The notes under the pieces: generated by a model
What the model saw: only the letters and a program-made list of their open reading frames with translations
Database searches by the model: none
Told to the model about the DNA's origin: nothing
Shown here: positions 21,903-39,051 of the stretch, in pieces
Position numbering within the stretch: position 1 is the stretch's first letter
Layout: the number at the start of each line of letters is the position of its first letter
Assembly (NCBI GenBank): GCA_020200315.1
Contig: JAIVIZ010000012.1
Location: 1 to 43,237 of the forward strand
Source: Sphingomonadales bacterium
GTDB taxonomy: Bacteria; Pseudomonadota; Alphaproteobacteria; Sphingomonadales; Sphingomonadaceae
DNA length: 43,237 nucleotides
Reading direction: 5' to 3'
Program-made: the position numbers and the translations under genes

Positions 21903-23072
21903 ATGTATCTCGCCACCCTGATGCTGCTCGGCTCGGGCGAACTTGGCCGCGAGTTCGCAATCGCCGCGAAACGGCTCGGTTGCCGGATCATTGCCTGCGA
22001 CCGCTACGCGAACGCGCCGGCGATGCAGCTCGCGGATGCGGCCGAAGTCTTTCCGATGCTCCATGGCGATGCCCTGCGCACGGCGGTCGAACGGCATCGC
22101 CCGGACGTCATCGTTCCTGAGATCGAGGCGATCGACACCGACACGCTCGTCGCGCTGGAACAGGAGGGATGGAGGGTTGCGCCGTCGGCCAAGGCGGTGC
22201 GCCTGACGATGAACCGCGACGGCATTCGCGATTTCGCCGCCAAGGAACTCGGCCTGACCACCTCCCGCTACGCGTTCGTGGAGAGTCGCGAGGAGGCGCT
22301 CGCGGCTGCAATCGGCGTCGGTCTGCCATGCGTCGTCAAGCCTGTGATGTCCTCCTCGGGTAAAGGTCAGAGCGTCGCCCGAACCTCGGACGAGCTTGGC
22401 GCAGCCTGGGATTATGCGGTCGCCAACATGCGCGGCGAGCGGGCCCGCGCCATCGTCGAGGAGTTCATCCTCTTCGACAGCGAGATCACGCTGCTGACCG
22501 TCGCAACGCGCGGCGGCGTGAACTTCTGCGCGCCCATCGGGCATCGTCAGGAAATGGGCGACTATCGCGAGAGCTGGCAGCCGGTCGCGATCAGCGATGC
22601 AGTGCTCGCCTCTGCACAGGCGCAGGCGGAGAAGGTGGTTAGCGCGCTCGGCGGGCACGGGCTGTTCGGGGTCGAATTCTTCATCGCCGGCGATCGGGCG
22701 ATCTTCTCCGAACTGAGTCCGAGGCCGCACGACACTGGAATGGTCACCCTGATTGGGCAGGCGCCGAACCAGTTCGAGCTGCACCTTCGCGCCATCCTCG
22801 GGATGCCCATCCCGGCGATTGAGCTTGCCGGAGCCAGCGCATCGGCCGTGATTCTTGCGGGCCGGCAAAGCAGCGACTTCTCCTTCCATGGAGTGGCCGA
22901 GGCGCTGGCGCTTGGCCGCGCTGAAGCGCCGGTCGATCTCCGCTTGTTCTGCAAACCTGAAACCCTGCCCCGGCGCCGCATGGGCGTCGCCCTGGCGCGT
23001 GGGGCTACCGTCGAGGACGCGACCGAGACTGCGGTAGCGGCTGCTCAGCTGGTGCGGATCCGTTACCACTGA
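21903..23072 (+). CDS. purT: Formate-dependent phosphoribosylglycinamide formyltransferase
   Basis: The ATP-grasp enzyme that formylates GAR with formate and ATP in purine synthesis. The 389 residues match PurT along the whole length: LLGSGELGREFAIAAKRLG, the VPEIEAIDTDTL block, VVKPVMSSSGKGQS for ATP binding, and EFILFDSEITLLTV. GHRQEMGDYRESWQP, GVEFFIAGD and SELSPRPHDTGMVT follow. Together with purE and purK near 33 kb this supplies two of the pathway steps. It ends ten bases before an ARG-box-like palindrome, so it is not cotranscribed with argC in a simple way. Confidence 0.95.
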   Translation: MYLATLMLLGSGELGREFAIAAKRLGCRIIACDRYANAPAMQLADAAEVFPMLHGDALRTAVERHRPDVIVPEIEAIDTDTLVALEQEGWRVAPSAKAVRLTMNRDGIRDFAAKELGLTTSRYAFVESREEALAAAIGVGLPCVVKPVMSSSGKGQSVARTSDELGAAWDYAVANMRGERARAIVEEFILFDSEITLLTVATRGGVNFCAPIGHRQEMGDYRESWQPVAISDAVLASAQAQAEKVVSALGGHGLFGVEFFIAGDRAIFSELSPRPHDTGMVTLIGQAPNQFELHLRAILGMPIPAIELAGASASAVILAGRQSSDFSFHGVAEALALGRAEAPVDLRLFCKPETLPRRRMGVALARGATVEDATETAVAAAQLVRIRYH

Positions 23073-23081
23073 AGGCGTTGT

Positions 23082-23110
23082 TTGCATAAGTATGCACAAA
23101 CTCGTATAAA
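23082..23110 (+). promoter_or_regulatory. arg operon promoter with overlapping ARG-box-like operator
   Basis: TGCATAAGTATGCA at 23083-23096 is a perfect 5-4-5 palindrome that fits the ArgR ARG-box pattern TGnATnnnnATnCA. It overlaps a -35-like TTGCAT (23082-23087), which is 17 bases from a -10-like TATAAA (23105-23110). The argC ATG at 23119 is only nine bases from the -10 end, so the transcript would be leaderless or nearly so. An argR gene ends the same operon. ArgR repression by arginine is therefore strongly suggested, but not shown. Confidence 0.75.
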
Positions 23111-23118
23111 CGTGAGTG

Positions 23119-24053
23119 ATGAAGACAGCGATTCTTGGCTCGTCCGGCTATGTCGGGGGCGAGTTGCTCCGGCTGCTGGCGGGGCATTCCGAGATCGAGG
23201 TCATACGCGCGTTCGCCTCGTCGAACGCCGGGGAGCCGTTCGCGCGAGTCCATCCGCATCTGTCCCTGGCCTATGCTGACCGGCGCTTCGATGCCTGGAC
23301 GAGCGGTGCGATCGACGGCTGCGAGCTGATTTTTGCGGCGCTGCCGCACGGGCAGACGCAGAAGCTGGCGGACGAGCTGATCGGGAGCGGCGCGAGGATC
23401 GTCGACCTCGGTGCCGACTTTCGCCTCGATAGTCCGGAGGAGTATGAGCGCTGGTACGGCGAACCGCATGCCCGCCCCGAACTGCTCGAGCGCTTCGTCT
23501 ACGGCCTGCCGGAATTTCATCGCGAGGCGATCGAGGGTGCCCGGTTCGTGGCGGCCCCAGGCTGCTATCCGACCGCGGCGAGCCTCGCGCTGCGTCCCTT
23601 GGTCGATTCCAGGATCGCAAGCCGCGAAGGGCTGATCGTCGATGCGGCTTCCGGAGTCAGCGGGGCCGGGCGCGGCGCCAGGGCCACGACTCATTTCTGC
23701 GGCGTCGACGGGTCGCTTCGGGCCTACGGGCTCCTCAACCACGCCGCGGCATCCTTGCGACCTGCTACGCGCGGGCGACCGGCGCCTGCGATCCGCTCGC
23801 CGTTCTGCGCGAGGCTTATGCCGGCGAGCCGTTCGTTCATGTTGGCGACGCGCCGCCCGAAACCAAATGGGCCAGCGGGTCCAACGCCGCCTTTCTGACC
23901 GCCCGCTACGACGAACGCACGGGAACGATCATGGCGATCGCCGCGATCGACAATCTCGGCAAGGGCGCGGCCGGGCAGATGATCCAGTGCGCCAATCTGA
24001 TGCTCGGCCTCGATGAAACGACGGGCCTGTCGACGTGCGGGGTCTATCCATGA
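23119..24053 (+). pseudogene. argC: N-acetyl-gamma-glutamyl-phosphate reductase, internally deleted and frameshifted
   Basis: Third step of arginine synthesis. From ATG 23119 the frame is a good type-1 ArgC: LGSSGYVGGELLRLL for NADP binding, ALPHGQTQ, VDLGADFRLDSPEEYERWYG split by family pattern, and the catalytic cysteine in APGCYPTAASLAL. At about 23735-23745 the sequence jumps from AYGLLNH to RGILATCYARATG in another frame, then runs intact to the stop at 24051. The lost piece, about 30 residues, normally carries the catalytic histidine of the PHLVPM-like motif. As written the first frame ends at 23898 with unrelated residues. The ArgC would be inactive if the sequence is correct. It is the first gene of argCJBR, with argJ overlapping its stop. 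Confidence 0.85.
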
Positions 24054-25117
24054 GCGTTACCGCGCCGCAGGGCTTTGTCGCCGCCGGGCTCCATGCGGGG
24101 GTCAAGGCGCGCAGACCCGACTTTGCCCTGCTCGTCACCGCCGACGGAAAGCCGGTCCCCTGCGCGGCGGTGTTTACGCAGAACAAGTTCCGCGCGCCGC
24201 CGGTCGAAGCATGCGTCGATCGATTGGCAGCCAGCGGCGGCATGGCGGTCGGCTGCGATCCGGCCCAGATCCTCGTCTGCTCGACGGGGCTGATCGGAAT
24301 CCCGTTGCCGATCGAAAAGCTGGTCGCCGCCAGCCCCTCCCTCGCTGCCACGCGGTCCGCCGACGGCGGGCATGACGCCGCCGCTGCGATCCTCACCACC
24401 GATACACGACCTAAAGAGGCGCTGATCGAAGGAACGGACTTCACCGTCGGCGGCATGGCCAAGGGTTGCGGTATGCTCGCGCCGAACATGGCCACGATGC
24501 TCGCCTTTCTGACGACCGATGCCGAGGTCCCGCGCGACACGCTGCAGGACATCCTCGCGCGCGCCGCCAATGCCAGTTTCAACTGCCTGATCACCGACGG
24601 CGCGACATCGACCAACGACACCGCGATGCTGTTCGCCAGCGGACGGCGCGGACCGCCCGGCGACATGTCGACGTTCGAAGATGCCGTGTTCCAGGTCTGC
24701 GAATCGCTGATGCTGCAGATGGGCCGCGACGCCGAGGGCATGACCAAGCTTGTCACCATCCGGGTCAACGGCGCGGCATCGGACGCCGAGGCGCGCCGCG
24801 TCGCGCGATCGATCGGCAATAACCAGCTGATCAAGTGCAGCTGGTATGGCGCCGATGCCTATTGGGGCCGGCTGCTCGGCGAAGCGGGCGCCTGCGGAGT
24901 CGCGTTCGAGAGCGGCACGGCGTCGGTCAGCTATGGCGGCGTCAAGGTCGCCGATGGCGGGGTCGAGATCGACCATGATTGCGGTGCGGTCGCCCGGCAT
25001 ATGCATGGCGACAGCATCGACATCCTCGTCGACCTCGGCCTGGGCTCGGGCGAAGGGCGCGCGGTGAGCGTCGACCTGGGGCCGGGCTACATCAAAGAGA
25101 ATAGCCTGACCTCATGA
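24050..25117 (+). CDS. argJ: Bifunctional ornithine acetyltransferase/N-acetylglutamate synthase, short N-terminal deletion
   Basis: ArgJ recycles acetyl groups between N-acetylornithine and glutamate. Of the usual about 400 residues, 355 are present. The start is [20 protein letters not shown]. The oxyanion block [12 protein letters not shown], the autocleavage region [16 protein letters not shown] (nucleophile Thr in MATML) and the C-terminal [12 protein letters not shown] are intact. Between LAASGG and VGCDPAQ the conserved VNSGNANA-type segment, about 30-40 residues, is missing in frame. The N-terminus resembles actinobacterial-type ArgJ more than the usual sphingomonad form, which hints at transfer. 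It overlaps argC and argB by four bases each (ATGA). Confidence 0.85.
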
Positions 25118-25977
25118 TGGACCCCAACGACACCGCGCAGTTGCTGATCCAGGCGCTGCCCTACATCCGCCGCTTCACCGGCAAGACCGTGGTGGTGAAG
25201 GTCGGCGGCCTGCCGATGACCGACCCCGTACGGGCGCGGAGCCTCGCCAAGGATGTGCTGCTGCTCCATTCGGTGGGCATTCGCCCAGTGTTGGTCCACG
25301 GCGGAGGACCGCAGATCGACGAGCAGATGCGCCGGGCCGGCAAGCAGCCGGAGTTCCGCGACGGGTTAAGGGTGACCGATGCCGAGACGCTCGACATCGT
25401 GCGCATGGTGCTGGTTGGCAAGATCAACCGCGAACTGGTCAGCGCGCTCAACGCACTCGAGCCGGTGGCGGTTGGCGTCGCGGGCGAGGATGGGCGACTG
25501 CTGGAGACGCAACCGCTCGATCCGCGGCTCGGATTTGTCGGCAAGGTCAGCGAGGTCCGCGCCGGGCTCCTTGAAGCGTTGCTCGACGACGGACTAGTCC
25601 CCATCGTTTCGACCGTCGGCGCCGGCAAGGACGGCCAACCGTACAACATTAACGCCGACGACGCGGCGCGCGCGATCGCGGTGGCGATGGGCGCGGAAAA
25701 GATCATTTACCTGACCGGCGTGCCGGGCCTGCTCGCCGACCCCAGCGATCCGACGAGCCTCGTCCAGCGGCTGAGCCCCGGCGAGGCACGGCGCCGGATC
25801 GCGGATTCGGGCGTCACCGGCGGGATGATTCCCAAGCTCCAGGCCTGCGCCGAGGCGGTCGAGGGCGGGGTTCGCAGCGCCCACATGATCGACGGCCGCG
25901 ACGATCACGGCATCCTCGTCGAATTGTTCACCGACAGCGGCATCGGCACGATGGTGTGCGAGGCGGGCGGCGCGTGA
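25114..25977 (+). CDS. argB: Acetylglutamate kinase
   Basis: Phosphorylates N-acetylglutamate, the step before ArgC. The 287 residues are full length: [13 protein letters not shown] for the phosphate loop (family form usually K-x-G-G-N/x-x-M), [11 protein letters not shown], the [11 protein letters not shown] block, [12 protein letters not shown] and the C-terminal [14 protein letters not shown]. The GG-L-P variant in the first loop is unusual. An N-terminal helix (residues 1-20) like that of arginine-sensitive hexameric kinases is present, so feedback inhibition is plausible. Start ATG 25114 overlaps the argJ stop; the stop overlaps argR. Confidence 0.93.
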
Positions 25978-26435
25978 GCGGCAAGGACCAGCGCCGCCGG
26001 CTGATCGTCGACTGGCTTCGCGAGCAGCGGGTCGCCAGCCAGGAGGAGCTGGTCGCGAGACTGGAACTCGCCGGAATTGCCGCCACCCAGGCAACCGTCT
26101 CGCGCGACCTCGACGAGATCGGCGCGGTGCGGATGAAGCGCGACGGGGCCGTTCGCTATGTGCTGGCGGAGGAAGTGGATGCCGGTGCCGCGGCGCGTCG
26201 CCTCGACCGACTGCTTGCCGAATGGGTGACGGCCATCGTTTCCGCGGGGCCGCTCCTCGTGCTGCGCACGCCGCCCGGCTCGGCCAATCTCGTCGCCAGC
26301 GCGATCGACGTTGCCGATCTGCCGGAGGTTGCGGGAACCATTGCAGGGGACGATACGATCTTCATCGCACTGGCCGACGGGGTTGCGCCAGGCGCGTTCG
26401 CGGCGGTGCTTCGGGAGCGCCGCGCGGCCGGGTAG
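25974..26435 (+). CDS. argR: Arginine repressor
   Basis: A 153-residue hexameric arginine-dependent DNA-binding regulator. The N-terminal winged helix covers residues 1-70, with SQEELVARL and ATQATVSRDLDEIGAVR as recognition region. The C-terminal oligomerisation domain holds the arginine-binding GTIAGDDTIFIAL motif with its paired aspartates. GTG 25974 is nested in the argB stop (GTGA). It is the last gene of argCJBR, whose promoter carries a matching palindrome at 23083-23096, implying autoregulation. ArgR within the biosynthetic operon is usual in actinobacteria and uncommon in alphaproteobacteria, supporting horizontal origin of the block. Confidence 0.92.
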   Translation: MSGKDQRRRLIVDWLREQRVASQEELVARLELAGIAATQATVSRDLDEIGAVRMKRDGAVRYVLAEEVDAGAAARRLDRLLAEWVTAIVSAGPLLVLRTPPGSANLVASAIDVADLPEVAGTIAGDDTIFIALADGVAPGAFAAVLRERRAAG

Positions 26436-26445
26436 GAGAGATGCC

Positions 26446-26850
26446 ATGCACAAGACCATGACAAGCCTGTGCACGATCGCACTGATCGGCGGATGCGGCC
26501 AGTCCTCCGCCCCTGCGCCGCAGCGGACGATCAAGGTCCAGGGCGACGAGCAGCGGCAGCTCGCTTCGGCCAACGAGATGGACCGTTCGATCGCGCTCAA
26601 ACGCGCGATCTACGATGCCGGGAACAGCTGCAAGCGCGTCACCAAAACGGGCTTCGTTACCGACTATAAGAATCTGTCGATGTGGCAGGCGGCGTGCGAC
26701 GACGGCAAGAATTGGGCGGTGTTCATTGCGGCCAACGGCGGCGTCCAGGTGCGCCCCTGCGCCGATCTCAAGGACTTGAAACTGCCCGAGTGCACGCTTG
26801 CGGCAACGAAGGCCGATACGAGAACGGCGGGCACCAGGCCCGCCGCTTAA
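26446..26850 (+). CDS. Predicted lipoprotein of unknown function
   Basis: A 134-residue predicted lipoprotein. ATG 26446 follows an AGGAGAG site eight bases upstream. The signal peptide ends in IGGC, with the lipidation Cys at residue 17 after a hydrophobic run. The mature part has three further Cys (in NSCKRV, QAACDDG and RPCADL, plus one in PECTL) that could pair. The middle resembles small sphingomonad proteins of unknown role. It follows argR by ten bases but differs in character, so it is probably only distally linked. Function not recognised. Confidence 0.75.
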   Translation: MHKTMTSLCTIALIGGCGQSSAPAPQRTIKVQGDEQRQLASANEMDRSIALKRAIYDAGNSCKRVTKTGFVTDYKNLSMWQAACDDGKNWAVFIAANGGVQVRPCADLKDLKLPECTLAATKADTRTAGTRPAA

Positions 26851-27503: not shown

Positions 27504-28910
27504 TCAAGGAGAGCGGCGGAGCGCCCGGGCTTGCGAGGGTGCGAAGCGATCGCCGAAATAGTCTCCCGCGTACCAGCGCGGCCGCATCGGCGCATCCGCG
27601 AGCGCTCGCGCGATCCGATAATTGAGCATGCCGTACCGCGCCAGCGCTCGCCACTCGATCGGCTGGCCGAGATCGTCTGACGGGCTGTGGTAGGTATGGG
27701 CGAGAAACCGCTTCCATACCGCCTCGCCGCCATTGGCAAAGCCCGTCATCAGCAGGATGGCCGGAACCCCGCGCGACACGAAGCGATAATGATCGGAGCG
27801 CACGAAGATCGATTCCTGCGGCATCGGGTCGGCGGACACGCCGATCCCCATCGATCGGCCTGCTTCCGCGACGCTCTGGGCAACCGTCGAGTGATCGGCA
27901 CCGAAGGCGATGACGTCCGTGAAATTGTACAAGGGCAGCGGCATGTCGAGGTCGACGACGCTGGCGATGGAGCCGATCGGCACCGTCGGATGAGACGCGA
28001 AATAGTCCGCGCCGAGCAGCCCCTTCTCCTCGCCGGTGTTGGCGATGAACAGCACCGATCGGGCGGGCCGTGTGCCGCTGGCGACGAACTCGCGCGCCGC
28101 CTCAAGCATGGTCGCGACCCCCGCGGCATTGTCGAGCGCGCCATTGTAGATCGCGTCCTCGCCTGGCTTCGCATCGCGCTTGACGCCGAGATGATCGAGA
28201 TGCGCCATCAGCACGACGTTCTCCGCCGATCGGGCGGGGTCGGCGCCGGGAAGCCGGCCGATCACTTCGGGACTGGTGAAATCCTCCCACTTGCTGTCCG
28301 CGGTAATGGACAGGCGCGTGGCGAGCGGGAAGCCTCGTGGGCGCGCGACGCCCTTCGCTTGCGCCCGCACCGCGGCAAGGCTGCGGGCGGCGCCGTCGAA
28401 CAGCCGCTCCTGCCACTGAGGAGAGAATGCGAGCCTCGCGCGAAGGCCTTGCGGAACGTTGCCGCTGCGTCCGCTCGAATCGACCCAGTCGACCGCGCTT
28501 CGCCGCGCCATGCCCGCAACGCCGCCGATCCGACCTGGATTGCGCGGGTCGCGTGCGATCTCGACGAAGCCGATCGCACCGTGCCTTGCCGCGCTGTCGT
28601 CCTTGGTCGAGGCGAGGTGCGCGGTGATTTCGCTCGACAGGCCATCGGGCGTGCCGCCGAGTGCGACCACGATCTTTCCCCGCACGTCGAGGCCGCGATA
28701 GTCGTTCAGACCGAGTAGCGGCTCGTGCCCGCGCGAGCCCATGTCGCGGCCCTCCAGCCTGTCGTCGGCGAGAAATTCGACATGCGCGCGCACGGTGTTG
28801 GCGGCGACCGTCTCCTCCGCACTCATTGGCGGTAGCGACGGCGCGACGCCGAGCAGCGCCAGCGCCGTCAGCGGGAGAGCGGCTCGCGCCAGCCTGCGGG
28901 CAAGGATCAA
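27504..28910 (-). CDS. M28 family metallopeptidase, internally deleted
   Basis: Exported zinc aminopeptidase of family M28, 468 residues from TTG 28910, which overlaps the galE stop (TTGA). A signal peptide (LARAALPLTALALLGV) is followed by HVEFLADDRLEGRDMGSRG. All metal ligands are visible: MAHLDHLGV (His), GALDNAAGV (Asp), NTGEEKGLLGADYF (Glu pair), VVDLDMPL (Asp) and HTYHSPSDD (His). At about 28725, SRGHE joins directly to LLGLNDYRGLDVRGK in frame. The roughly 75 residues that normally lie between (the start of the PA-like insert) are missing. Catalysis might survive but folding of the N-terminal part is doubtful. The TTG start is inferred from coupling, not from a ribosome binding site. 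Confidence 0.82.
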   Translation of the reverse strand: MILARRLARAALPLTALALLGVAPSLPPMSAEETVAANTVRAHVEFLADDRLEGRDMGSRGHEPLLGLNDYRGLDVRGKIVVALGGTPDGLSSEITAHLASTKDDSAARHGAIGFVEIARDPRNPGRIGGVAGMARRSAVDWVDSSGRSGNVPQGLRARLAFSPQWQERLFDGAARSLAAVRAQAKGVARPRGFPLATRLSITADSKWEDFTSPEVIGRLPGADPARSAENVVLMAHLDHLGVKRDAKPGEDAIYNGALDNAAGVATMLEAAREFVASGTRPARSVLFIANTGEEKGLLGADYFASHPTVPIGSIASVVDLDMPLPLYNFTDVIAFGADHSTVAQSVAEAGRSMGIGVSADPMPQESIFVRSDHYRFVSRGVPAILLMTGFANGGEAVWKRFLAHTYHSPSDDLGQPIEWRALARYGMLNYRIARALADAPMRPRWYAGDYFGDRFAPSQARALRRSP

Positions 28911-29887
28911 CGAGACTTCCAGTCGATCAGCTTGCGTTCCCACGCCAGGGCGTCGGCGACGATGCCGTGAATATCGGCGTGGCGCGGCGTCCACTCGAGG
29001 GTTTCGACCAGCGTCCGGTTCGAGGCGACAAGTTGGGGCGGATCGCCGGCGCGCCGCTCGCCAAGGCGGCGCGGGATCTTGCGCTGGCACACGTCATCGA
29101 GGGCATCGAGGACTTCGATCACGGAATGACCGGTACCATAACCGCAGTTCAGCAGCAGATTCTCGCGCGGAGCAGCGATCAGCCGCTCGAGCGCGGCGAC
29201 ATGCGCCGCCGCCAGGTCCGACACGTGGATATAATCGCGGATGCAGCTTCCGTCCGGGGTCGGATAGTCGGTTCCGAACACGTCGACATGGTCGCGCTTG
29301 CCGAGCGCCGCCTCGGTCGCGACCTTGATGATGTGGGTCGAGGACTTGCCGATCTGCCCCGAGCGCAGCTGGGGATCGGCGCCGGAAACGTTGAAGTAGC
29401 GCAGCGCGGCATAGTTGAACGGGTGCGCGCGGGCGGCGTCGGCGAGCATCTGCTCGGTCATCCATTTGGACGCGCCGTAGGGGTTGATCGGCAGCTTTGG
29501 GTCCGCTTCGTCGATCGGCAGCCGCTCGGGCGCGCCATAGACGGCCGCGGTCGAGGAAAAGACGAAGTGCGGCACGCCGGCGGCGACCGCCTCGCTCAGC
29601 AACGCGTGGCTGGCGAGCGTGTTGTTGGCATAGTAAGCGAGCGGCTTCTCGACCGACTCCCCGACCTGGATCGATCCGGCGAAATGAAGAATCGCACCGA
29701 TGCCGTGCTCGCGCAGCATATTGGCGACGAGCGGCCGATCCGCGACGTCGCCCCTGATATAGGCAACCGCGTCGGGCACGAGCGCGCGGGTGCCGTTGCT
29801 TTCGTCGTCGATGACCACGACGCGCCATCCCGCATCCAGCAGCGCGAGGACGGTGTGGCTGCCGATGTAGCCGGCACCGCCGGTGGG
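28907..29887 (-). pseudogene. galE: UDP-glucose 4-epimerase lacking its start codon
   Basis: GalE interconverts UDP-glucose and UDP-galactose. The body is normal: TGGAGYIGSHTVLALLDAG for NAD binding, LHFAGSIQVGESV, the catalytic FSSTAAVYG and YGASKWMTEQML (Tyr and Lys of YxxxK), YFNVSGADP and the RDYIHVSDLA block. But the frame is closed by TAG at 29888-29890, two codons before the TGG of the dinucleotide motif, and no start codon lies between. Only about 8-10 N-terminal residues are gone. The first in-frame start (GTG 29818) would remove the nucleotide-binding loop. The sequence upstream reads like another gene's 3' end (RFRLLLR then TAG), suggesting an abrupt junction at about 29887. Confidence 0.8.
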
Positions 29888-32639: not shown

Positions 32640-33125
32640 ATGGCGGCAAAGATCGACGTCGGCATTATCATGGGTAGCCGTTCCGACTGGGAGACGATGC
32701 GCCACACCGCCGAAATGCTGGGCGAACTCGGCATCGCTTATGAGAGCCGAGTCGTATCGGCCCATCGCACCCCGAAGCGACTCTATGATTACGCCGGCGG
32801 TGCCGCCGCTCGCGGCCTCAAGATCATTATTGCCGGTGCCGGCGGCGCCGCGCACCTCCCGGGCATGGCGGCATCGATGACCGAGCTGCCGGTGCTCGGG
32901 GTACCGGTTGAGTCGAGCGCGCTGGGCGGCGTCGACAGCCTGTTGTCGATCGTCCAGATGCCCTCTGGCGTGCCCGTCGCGACGCTGGCGATCGGCAAGG
33001 CGGGCGCGATCAACGCCGCGCTGCTCGCCGCGGCGATCCTCGCGCTCGGCGATCCGGCGCTGGCTCAGCGGCTCGCGGCGTGGCGCGCGGCGCAGACCGA
33101 CAGCGTGGATGACTCGCCCGAATGA
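32640..33125 (+). CDS. purE: 5-(carboxyamino)imidazole ribonucleotide mutase
   Basis: Class I PurE moves the carboxylate of N5-CAIR to give CAIR in purine synthesis. The 161 residues include [12 protein letters not shown] for substrate phosphate binding, [14 protein letters not shown] with the catalytic His, [14 protein letters not shown] and [22 protein letters not shown], truncated here as the standard PurE block. The start ATG 32640 has only weak upstream complementarity. The stop overlaps purK by four bases (ATGA), the usual purEK coupling. Confidence 0.95.
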
Positions 33126-34120
33126 CGCTGCCGCCCGGTTCGACGATCGGCATCATCGGCGGCGGCCAACTCGGGCGGATGCTGGCGCTCGCCGCGGCGC
33201 CGCTCGGCTACCGGGTTCATGTCCTCGCCCCTGACGAGACGCCATGCGCCGCCGCCGTGGCCGCCCACTTCACCCGCGCCCGGTTCGACGATGCCGGAGC
33301 GCTCGCCCGATTCGCTTCCGAAGTCGATGTCGTCACCTATGAATTCGAAAACCTGCCCGTGGCGCCGCTCGATGCCTTGGGCGACAAGCTGCGGCCAGGG
33401 ACACGTTCGCTCGCCATCGCGCAGGACCGCGCGGCCGAAAAACGCTTCATCGAAGGTAGCGGAGCGCGCGTCGCGCCGTGGCGCCACGTTAATTCGCTCG
33501 CCGACCTGCGCGATGCCGTGGATGCGCTGGGCCTGCCGATGGTCCTGAAGAGCCAGCGGTTCGGTTACGACGGCAAGGGTCAGGCGTGGGTCCACGCGCC
33601 TTCGGATGCCGAAGCGGCGTGGGACAGCATCGGCCGCCAACCGGCGGTGACCGAAGCGGCGGTCGATTTCATCGGTGAGTTTTCGGTCGAACACGGCATC
33701 CTCCGGCGGTCGGAGGTGCCGGCCACCCTCTCAGGCGTCGATGAAGCCGTCGCGATCGCCAGCCGCCTCGCTGAGTTGCTCGGCCATGTCGGTGTGCTGG
33801 CTGTCGAGTTTTTCGCGACGCCTGACGGTCCGTTGGTCAACGAGATCGCTCCGCGCGTGCACAATAGCGGGCATTGGACGATCGAGGGCGCCGAGACCTC
33901 GCAGTTCGAACAGCATATTCGCGCCATTTGCGGGCTGCCCCTTGGCGCGACGACGCTGACCGGCAATTCGGTGACGATGGACAATCTCATCGGCGAGGAC
34001 ATCGCCGCTTGGCACCGCCTCATCGGCGAGCCCGGCGCACACCTCCATTTTTACGACAAGGGAGAGGCGCGGCCGGGCCGCAAGATGGGTCATGTCACCC
34101 GGGTGAGGCCCCGAGCATAA
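33122..34120 (+). CDS. purK: 5-(carboxyamino)imidazole ribonucleotide synthase, short internal deletion
   Basis: ATP-grasp enzyme that carboxylates AIR to N5-CAIR. Of the usual about 350 residues, 332 are present. [39 protein letters not shown] and VLAVEFFAT are normal, as is [17 protein letters not shown]. At about 33690 DFIGEFSV is followed directly by [12 protein letters not shown]. Homologues have about 20 more residues here (a beta hairpin after EFSV). The loss is in frame. Whether the enzyme would fold is uncertain. It is coupled to purE and ends in a hairpin. Confidence 0.88.
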
Positions 34121-37173: not shown

Positions 37174-39051
37174 ATGACTGACCGCAGCACAATTCGAAAC
37201 TTTTCGATCATCGCGCATATCGACCATGGGAAAAGCACCCTGGCCGACCGGCTGATCCAGCGGACGGGGGGGCTGAGCGAGCGCGAAATGTCGAGCCAAG
37301 TGCTTGATAATATGGACATCGAGAAGGAGCGCGGGATCACCATCAAGGCGCAGACGGTGCGCCTCCAGTGGACCGCCAACGACGGGGCAAACTACACGCT
37401 CAACCTGATGGATACGCCCGGTCACGTCGACTTTGCCTACGAGGTCAGCCGCAGCCTGGCTGCCTGCGAAGGCGCGCTGCTGGTGGTCGACGCGGCGCAG
37501 GGGGTCGAGGCGCAAACGCTCGCCAATGTCTATCAATCGATCGAGCACGACCATGAAATCGTGCCGGTGATCAACAAGATCGACCTGCCGGCCGCGGAAC
37601 CCGAACGGGTCCGGGCCGAAATCGAGGAAATCATCGGCCTCGACGCCAGCGAAGCGGTGCTCGCCAGCGCCAAGAGCGGCATCGGCATCGACGAAGTGCT
37701 GCAGGCAATCGTCGACAAAATCCCTCCGCCCAAGGGCGACGCCCAGGCCCCGCTCAAGGCCATGCTGGTCGATTCCTGGTACGACCCCTACCTCGGCGTC
37801 GTCATCCTCGTCCGCGTCATCGACGGCGTGATGAAGCGCGGCCAGCAGATCAAGTTCATGGCCGCCGGCACGCTCCACCTGGTCGACCGGGTCGGCTGCT
37901 TCCGCCCCAAGATCGAGCAATTGCCCGAGCTCGCCGCCGGCGAAATCGGCTTCATCACCGCGCAGATCAAGGAAGTCGCCGAGACCCGGGTCGGCGACAC
38001 CATCACCGACGCCAAGCGCCCGACCGCGACCGCCCTGCCCGGCTTCAAGCTGGTCCAGCCGGTGGTGTTCTGCGGCCTGTTCCCGGTCGACGCGGCCGAT
38101 TACGAGAAATTGCGCGACAGCCTGTACAAGCTGCGCCTCAATGACGCCTCGTTCAGCTTCGAGGTCGAGAGCAGCGCGGCGCTGGGCTTCGGCTTTCGCT
38201 GCGGGTTCTTGGGGCTGCTCCACCTCGAGATCATCCAGGAGCGGTTGACGCGGGAATACGACCTCGACCTGATCACCACCGCGCCGAGCGTGGTCTATCG
38301 GCTGCACCTCAACCGCTCCAAGCGCGACGAGGCCTCGACCGGATCGGCGCGCACGGTCGCGGGGGACAGCGACAGCGGGCGGGTGATCGAGCTGCACAAC
38401 CCGGCCGACATGCCCGACCCCAACCGGATCGAGCGGATCGAGGAGCCGTGGATCGAGGCGACCATCTATGTCCCCGACGAATATCTCGGATCGGTCCTCA
38501 AGCTGTGCCAGGACCGGCGCGGCATCCACAAGGATCTGACCTATGTCGGCGCCAGCAGCGCGCTGCGCGCCCAGCTCAAATATGAGCTGCCATTGAACGA
38601 GGTGGTGTTCGATTTTTATGACCGGCTGAAGTCGATCAGCAAGGGCTATGCGAGCTTCGACTATCACCCGATCGGGACGCGCGAGGGCGACCTGGTCAAG
38701 ATGAGCATCCTGGTCAATGAGGAGCCGGTCGATGCGCTGAGCATGATCGTCCACCGCGGCACCGCCGAGGCGCGCGGCCGGCAGATGTGCGAGCGGCTGA
38801 AGGAGCTGATCCCGCGGCACTTGTTCAAAATCCCGATCCAGGCGGCGATCGGCGGCAAGGTCATTGCGCGAGAGACGATCAGCGCGATGCGCAAGGACGT
38901 CACCGCGAAGTGCTACGGCGGCGACGCGACGCGCAAGCGCAAGCTGCTCGACAAGCAGAAAAAGGGCAAGGCCAAGATGCGGGAGTATGGCAATGTGTCG
39001 ATCCCGCAGGAGGCGTTCATTGCCGCGCTGCGGATGGGGGATGAGGGATAA
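37174..39051 (+). CDS. lepA: Elongation factor 4 (LepA)
   Basis: Ribosomal GTPase that can back-translocate or remodel ribosomes. The 625-residue protein has P-loop AHIDHGKST, switch [22 protein letters not shown], and NKIDLP. The EF4-specific C-terminal domain ends in [14 protein letters not shown]. It is about 20 residues longer than usual: an extra segment around residues 383-402 ([19 protein letters not shown]) lies before [16 protein letters not shown] diverged copy of its last 190 bases lies downstream at 39816-40004. The gene is divergent from the M16 gene. Confidence 0.95.

Follow-up and report, generated by a model that had tools for sequence, protein, structure and literature searches.

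The DNA analyzed here, referred to as the window, comprises positions 1 to 43,237 of contig JAIVIZ010000012.1 from a metagenome-assembled genome of a Sphingomonadales bacterium (GCA_020200315.1). It carries four arginine genes, argC, argJ, argB, and argR, together with a predicted operator for the arginine repressor ArgR over their promoter (Table 1). The gene identities follow from NCBIfam and Pfam profile matches, which also bear out the original prediction, made from the window's sequence, that argR is the last gene of the operon. All four genes lie on the forward strand between purT and a small lipoprotein-like open reading frame (ORF), and each overlaps the next by 4 nucleotides (nt): ATGA at argC/argJ and argJ/argB and GTGA at argB/argR. 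The argR product contains an N-terminal winged-helix DNA-binding domain (PF01316; 73.8 bits against a cutoff of 27) and a C-terminal arginine-binding and oligomerization domain (PF02863; 71.2 bits against a cutoff of 25). The GDD motif, a feature of the latter domain in ArgR proteins, is found at G125, D126, and D127 and is invariant across five aligned sequences. Because the NCBIfam score lies just under the TIGR01529 cutoff (129.1 versus 130.45 bits; PRK03341, the best NCBIfam model, gave 130.5 versus 200), membership in the ArgR/AhrC family was assigned from the two Pfam domains.

The 43-bp interval that separates purT from the argC GTG contains the hexamers TTGCAT and TATAAA with a 17-bp spacer. 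Overlapping TTGCAT is TGCATAAGTATGCA (TGCAT-AAGT-ATGCA), the palindrome that had been described as covering the -35 region and the sole perfect TGCAT-N4-ATGCA site in the window. In 300 first-order Markov copies of the window, such a site is expected 0.037 times per copy. When up to two mismatches were allowed, the pattern was not enriched in the window (8 sites observed versus 12.9 expected), and evidential weight was therefore given only to the perfect site and its conservation. A matrix derived from the boxes of 16 relatives, with the window's own box excluded, scored that box at 22.6 and the next-best place in the window at 8.0. At the argC start, the window reads GTG-ATG-AAG, and alignment places the GTG (23116) opposite the ATG of relatives, whose proteins begin with M-I-R or similar. 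Five bases lie between the end of TATAAA and this GTG, and eight precede the ATG at 23119; the short -10-to-start distance of the original prediction thus stands, whereas its count of nine bases to the ATG does not. With either start, the predicted leader amounts to almost nothing.

Table 1. Coordinates of features in the window
Feature	Coordinates	Strand	Remarks
-35 hexamer TTGCAT (left half of the ARG box plus one base)	23082..23087	+	At this position in 17/17 aligned promoters, window included
ARG box 1, TGCATAAGTATGCA, predicted ArgR operator	23083..23096	.	Perfect palindrome; at most one mismatch in 16 relatives, absent from divergent L042
Second ARG box position, 20 bp on	23103..23116	.	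Degenerate; CGTAT in window, TGCAT in 14/16 relatives
-10 hexamer TATAAA, 17-bp spacer	23105..23110	+	From sequence; CATA at the equivalent place in 14/16 relatives
argC	23116..24053	+	Start GTG by homology, ATG 23119 also possible; 70-nt deletion at about 23742/23743 with change of frame
argJ, actinobacterial type	24050..25117	+	In-frame deletion of about 96 nt at about 24244-24252; slightly below NCBIfam cutoffs
argB	25114..25977	+	Full length; TIGR00761 positions 1-230 of 231
argR, arginine repressor	25974..26435	+	DNA-binding and C-terminal domains both present
purT	21903..23072	+	Upstream neighbor
Small lipoprotein-like ORF	26446..26850		Downstream neighbor
M28-family peptidase gene	27504..29090
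GalE-like ORF	28907..29818
purK	33122..34120
LepA gene	37174..39051
ORF near contig end	41087..41869	-	DUF5131-like by eye

The promoter comparison drew on 17 ArgR-bearing relatives with an argC start available, 16 of which were aligned (genera g1, g54, and g45 plus metagenome-assembled genomes). Genus g1 is that of the window and is, we infer, Sphingomicrobium, which together with Allosphingosinicella makes up the Sphingomicrobiaceae in the NCBI taxonomy. Omitted from the alignment were L042, L037 (a contig piece without argC, its argC being L061), and the duplicate L072. Box and promoter spacing are kept in 16 of the 17 relatives; the exception is the divergent L042 of genus g41, at whose argC no ARG box was found. 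Twelve of the 16 boxes are perfect, and four have one mismatch. A TGCAT half-site 20 bp past the first box takes in the -10 bases of most relatives (Table 1). The bases between the -10 position and the start codon vary among relatives, and the start codon lies exactly 6 nt past the -10 position in 15 of the 16 (14 by script and L071, whose aligned codon is one further on, by eye); L035 has 9 nt. In the available text of PMC7566282, sigma-A promoters of Zymomonas mobilis, a member of the same order, follow TTGNNN-17-TANNNN, and their discriminator is most often 6 bp long. The window's promoter fits this consensus. The self-regulation put forward in the original prediction gains support from a box at the argC promoter of nearly all relatives with argR inside the operon, and the leaderless argC mRNA put forward with it is a prediction that the promoter geometry strongly favors. 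In this comparison, gap and Shine-Dalgarno counts based on the first in-frame start after the box were dropped, as chance start triplets within the promoter had been picked.

Among 298 genomes of the family, ArgR exceeded the Pfam cutoff in 14: five of the six from the window's genus, six from g54, two from g45, and a divergent one from g41 (G040). All but the last of these also carry the operon-type ArgJ, so that 13 of the 298 do (61 to 100% identity to the ArgJ of L031), and 275 other family genomes match ArgJ at no more than 44% identity among the rows listed, a type referred to here as native. Native ArgJ seems to be gone from the 12 relatives with the operon type, since each has a single ArgJ match. 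In a wider set of 385 Alphaproteobacteria, eight passed the ArgR cutoff, the window's own genome included; the other seven reached only 39 to 52 bits. Across 398 Pseudomonadota, the window's genome alone exceeded 46% ArgJ identity among the rows listed. Two genomes stand apart. G077, from the window's genus, has neither an ArgR nor an ArgJ match and matches the ornithine carbamoyltransferase (argF) model only weakly, at 100 bits; judged by its gene content, it is possibly an arginine auxotroph. The g41 genome contains, at L042, a divergent argR, argC, and argB cluster (32 to 48% identity to the window's genes) with no ArgJ match, which may represent either a separate acquisition or an old paralogue.

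Quick-search trees were built with coverage limits of 0.78 for ArgR, 0.85 for ArgJ and ArgF, and 0.9 for ArgC, ArgB, and ArgG; rows of lower coverage were omitted, as were the duplicates L072 and L149 to L161, except that L159 was kept for ArgJ and ArgC. In the ArgJ tree, the 17 sphingomonad operon rows form one clade (starred) within an almost wholly Actinomycetota set. The 17 native sphingomonad rows, which were the best-scoring natives and not a random draw, stand apart from them, joined by three Acidimicrobiia rows. An approximately unbiased (AU) test rejected a single clade of native and operon sphingomonad ArgJ (p 4.8e-43). Thus, for ArgJ, the sole gene treed with native copies, the operon sequences do not fall within the sphingomonads. 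The ArgC and ArgB trees each contain one sphingomonad operon clade, and the operon clades of ArgJ, ArgR, ArgC, and ArgB all adjoin or sit inside mostly Actinomycetota sequences. The ArgR tree was drawn up exclusive of the seven other alphaproteobacterial ArgR genes. In the ArgR search, the nearest nonsphingomonad proteins among the matches listed are from Actinomycetota, mostly Acidimicrobiia by title. Transfer of the operon from an actinobacterial source, as originally suggested, thus appears well supported by the trees and by the distant type of the native sphingomonad ArgJ.

The outside loci, that is, those of the ArgR matches listed from beyond the sphingomonads, extend this comparison to gene order and promoter. 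By title, 52 of 75 are from Actinomycetota; argC-J-B-F-R occurs in order in 24 of the 75, and 20 are cut or otherwise arranged. A usable argC start was available for only 42 of the outside loci. The best box upstream of argC scored above the 99th percentile of control pieces in 25 of these, and it ended (as an 18-mer) 15 to 25 nt before codon 2 in 26, the corresponding distance being 21 nt in most sphingomonads. Because many Actinomycetota relatives share both the gene order and the layout of box, promoter, and start, the control region was probably transferred as well, and the box-over-promoter, near-leaderless layout seems to be older than the transfer. The argF genes of the g54 and g45 operons and the unlinked argF genes of g1 form separate clades. 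In g54-type loci, the argG downstream of argR groups with two unlinked sphingomonad argG rows and so was probably added locally. A likely history, as read from these trees and gene orders, is that an actinobacterium supplied a block of argCJB, argF, and argR, from which the window's genus later dropped argF.

The box search across genomes for which the original prediction had called covered 14 genomes (13 with ArgR, plus G077) and employed the strict form TGNAT-WWWW-ATNCA. Of the 14 sites retrieved, 11 lie at argC promoters in 10 genomes, G053 having two tandem boxes there, and 3 lie inside coding sequence. When 14 argG and 5 argF loci were scanned with the matrix, no score exceeded 9.4, versus 21 to 34 for argC boxes; the 95th percentile of the background, which still includes three argC boxes, is 10.7 per 3 kb. 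The operons of g54 genomes include argF and often argG; those of the window's genus contain neither, and no box was found at the separately located genes. Comparable boxes were found at argC only, and neither argG nor unlinked argF has one; at this box quality, ArgR therefore seems to control a single operon, for a survey of argC, argG, and argF loci that left aside argD, argH, and carAB. The window's own genome holds eight TGNAT-N4-ATNCA sites (reversed control, 1), and none of the seven outside the window lies directly upstream of an arginine-biosynthesis gene by eye. Relaxed searches for TGCAT-N4-ATGCA with one or two mismatches were set aside in favor of the AT-rich form and the matrix, as they returned too many sites: 19 to 49 per genome versus 2 to 10 in the reversed control. 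This excess is not attributable to ArgR, because G077 shows it too. The only other perfect TGCAT-N4-ATGCA site in the window's genome (L043:5390-5403, contig C120) has a spacer that is not AT rich and overlaps the start ATG of an ORF resembling, by eye, a Phd/YefM antitoxin gene.

As assembled, the window's copy of the operon is damaged. The argC gene is 938 nt long versus 1,008 nt in the nearest relative (L069), and this 70-nt shortfall shifts the frame: positions 1 to 209 of TIGR01850 match in one frame and positions 238/239 to 345 in another. The argJ gene lacks 32 residues (96 nt, in frame) that are present in the relatives compared and scores 336.9 against an NCBIfam cutoff of 351. Intact reading frames, as a functional argCJBR operon would have, are found for argB and argR but not for argC, which is frameshifted, or argJ, which has the 32-residue gap; if real, the deletions would be expected to inactivate both genes. 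The lineage may then be losing arginine synthesis, with the operon a decaying relic, an explanation that is plausible and that we rate below even odds. It is consistent with the short repeats at both junctions, where BLAST pieces overlap by 3 and 8 nt, and with the assembly containing no second argC or argJ above cutoff (a weak match on contig C189 reaches 50.6 bits against 233.6). The gene content of G077 suggests that pathway loss does occur in the genus, and three of the four gaps on the contig (those in argJ, purK, and the peptidase gene) keep the frame. However, the assembly comprises 202 contigs and is 87% complete, and gaps of a similar kind occur in unrelated genes of this contig: about 20 residues are missing from the ATP-grasp region of purK when it is compared with three copies from the same genus, and about 84 from the N-terminal half of the M28-family peptidase when it is compared with two relatives. 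Given that the damage extends to unrelated genes, and that argB, argR, the box, and the promoter show none, we lean toward an assembly or amplification artifact as the source of the argC and argJ deletions. Other irregularities were seen along the contig. LepA carries a 15-residue insertion absent from three relatives, the GalE-like ORF begins at profile position 28 of 332 so that the N terminus is missing in this frame, and the reverse-strand ORF near the contig end has a low third-position G+C content (0.65).

A second alternative concerns the promoter: transcription might start upstream and yield an ordinary leader, with the box merely an operator below another promoter, or purT might be read through into argC. 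The close, same-strand spacing of purT and argC would allow this, and 52 leaderless units of Z. mobilis also have a leadered alternative in the available text of PMC7566282, which counts 119 leaderless cases among 2,675 pairs of transcription start site and gene. Yet no purT was found in the g54 and g45 stretches examined, where the distance from box to start is unchanged. Moreover, when 17 box-to-start segments were searched for five four-base Shine-Dalgarno-like words, only L031 (AGGA) and L035 (AGGG) gave a hit. We regard an upstream start as rather improbable. Least credible is an operon ancestral to the sphingomonads and lost in most lineages without any transfer: its copies do form one clade in every tree and share a syntenic neighborhood throughout the window's genus, but the other family genomes listed carry the distant native ArgJ, ArgR exceeds 52 bits among the 385 Alphaproteobacteria in the window's genome only, and the AU test already rejects this history for ArgJ.

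The arginine operon is thus very probably of actinobacterial type and repressed by ArgR, having been acquired along with its repressor gene and its promoter-operator. The acquirer would have been an ancestor of the Sphingomicrobium/Allosphingosinicella group, in which the incoming genes would have replaced native argJ and probably argC and argB too. From the repressor family and the promoter layout, we infer that ArgR acts on its own operon. Arginine-bound ArgR would bind the ARG box over the -35 hexamer and, in relatives, also the second half-site over the -10, which would block RNA polymerase and repress argC, argJ, argB, and argR itself. When arginine drops, the promoter would open, and transcription would begin on the argC start codon or no more than a few bases from it. 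The resulting leaderless mRNA would be translated from its 5' end, with translation of argJ, argB, and argR probably coupled through the 4-nt overlaps, and the target set of the repressor would be this one operon.

Several observations weigh against parts of this interpretation. Native sphingomonad copies were left out of the ArgC and ArgB trees, and the outside loci are the ArgR matches listed (at least 75), so that nearer donors could be missing. The sphingomonad ArgR clade lies beside, not inside, Acidimicrobiia (91% support in the Shimodaira-Hasegawa-like approximate likelihood ratio test). Among the 75 outside loci, 16 have argC-B-F-R without an ArgJ match and 15 have ArgR alone (Clostridia and the like). 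In the Acidimicrobiia operons L086, L107, and L123, ArgJ groups with the native sphingomonad type, which indicates that ArgJ has moved more than once. With argC frameshifted and argJ short of 32 residues, the window's copy as assembled would not work. No strict AT-rich box was found in 3 of the 13 ArgR genomes (G274, G266, and G000, the window's own), because the spacer of the argC box there contains G or C. At the promoter, the relatives' hexamer at the 17-bp spacing starts with C, unlike the TANNNN consensus. The -10 of these relatives may sit at that spacing or two bases further on, where a TA hexamer leaves 4 nt and the mRNA would still be leaderless; either placement predicts that transcription starts no more than a few bases from the start codon. 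The Shine-Dalgarno-like word of L031 stands just before the ATG, and that of L035 lies further up. Finally, because the second half-site is degenerate in the window, repression may be weaker here than in the relatives.

The individual parts of this system are already known. In Streptomyces clavuligerus and Streptomyces coelicolor, the argCJBDR operon is controlled by ArgR, and in S. clavuligerus the operator is a pair of 18-nt boxes with 2 bp between them, as described in the available portion of PMC3293853. The sphingomonad operon resembles that of Streptomyces in having argR last and, in most of the window's relatives, in the same 20-bp step between boxes. It differs in its alphaproteobacterial host, in lacking argD, in lacking argF in the window's genus, and in an apparently single-operon target set, whereas the same portion of PMC3293853 describes boxes at argG, argH, and arcB in S. 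coelicolor as well. Closer in arrangement are the argC-J-B-F-R-(G) operons of Acidimicrobiia (for example, L076, L099, and L106), which are among the nearest ArgR matches listed and have the same order and, over the region of the argC promoter, an ARG box at a similar distance from the start. In most of these operons, about 2.1 kb separates the argB start from the argF start, leaving room for argD (not identified). Like them, the g54 and g45 operons retain argF, which is absent from the operon of the window's genus. Gammaproteobacterial ArgR regulons employ the same repressor family and box logic on a larger scale, with a mean of 19.7 genes per genome assigned to ArgR; in the available text of PMC5343134, strong conservation of ArgR is described for many gammaproteobacterial groups, and its absence for other classes, among the genomes studied. 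In the alphaproteobacteria described here, the regulon appears to consist of one operon.

In the open-access papers searched, which mostly exclude subscription journals, we found no report of ArgR or of this operon in sphingomonads, and the setting did not come up. A replacement of native arginine biosynthesis genes through lateral transfer was reportedly described for Xanthomonadales by Lima and Menck in 2008; going by its title, this is the same kind of event in another lineage. Relative to the original prediction, the present analysis adds the argC and argJ lesions, the GTG start, the spread of the operon over related genera, and the similar promoter layout of actinobacterial relatives. As a tentative extension, which we consider less likely to be right than wrong, the operon may be a portable regulatory cassette: a leaderless, self-repressed unit that an alphaproteobacterial ancestor received from an actinobacterium and that functioned immediately under control by arginine, displaced the native genes, and stayed a one-operon regulon. 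Such portability would follow from a promoter that overlaps its operator, an mRNA that may need no host-type ribosome-binding site, genes coupled by overlaps, and a repressor that travels with its only good target. The enzymes themselves are ordinary, and the operon is informative as an instance of regulation passing from one phylum to another. Biosynthetic genes, the gene for their repressor, and the promoter-operator seem to have made this crossing as a unit and to have replaced a gene set of the host, adding an ArgR-controlled lineage to the Alphaproteobacteria. With the donor-type promoter layout still readable, the idea that a leaderless promoter favors the survival of a regulated operon after transfer becomes open to test.

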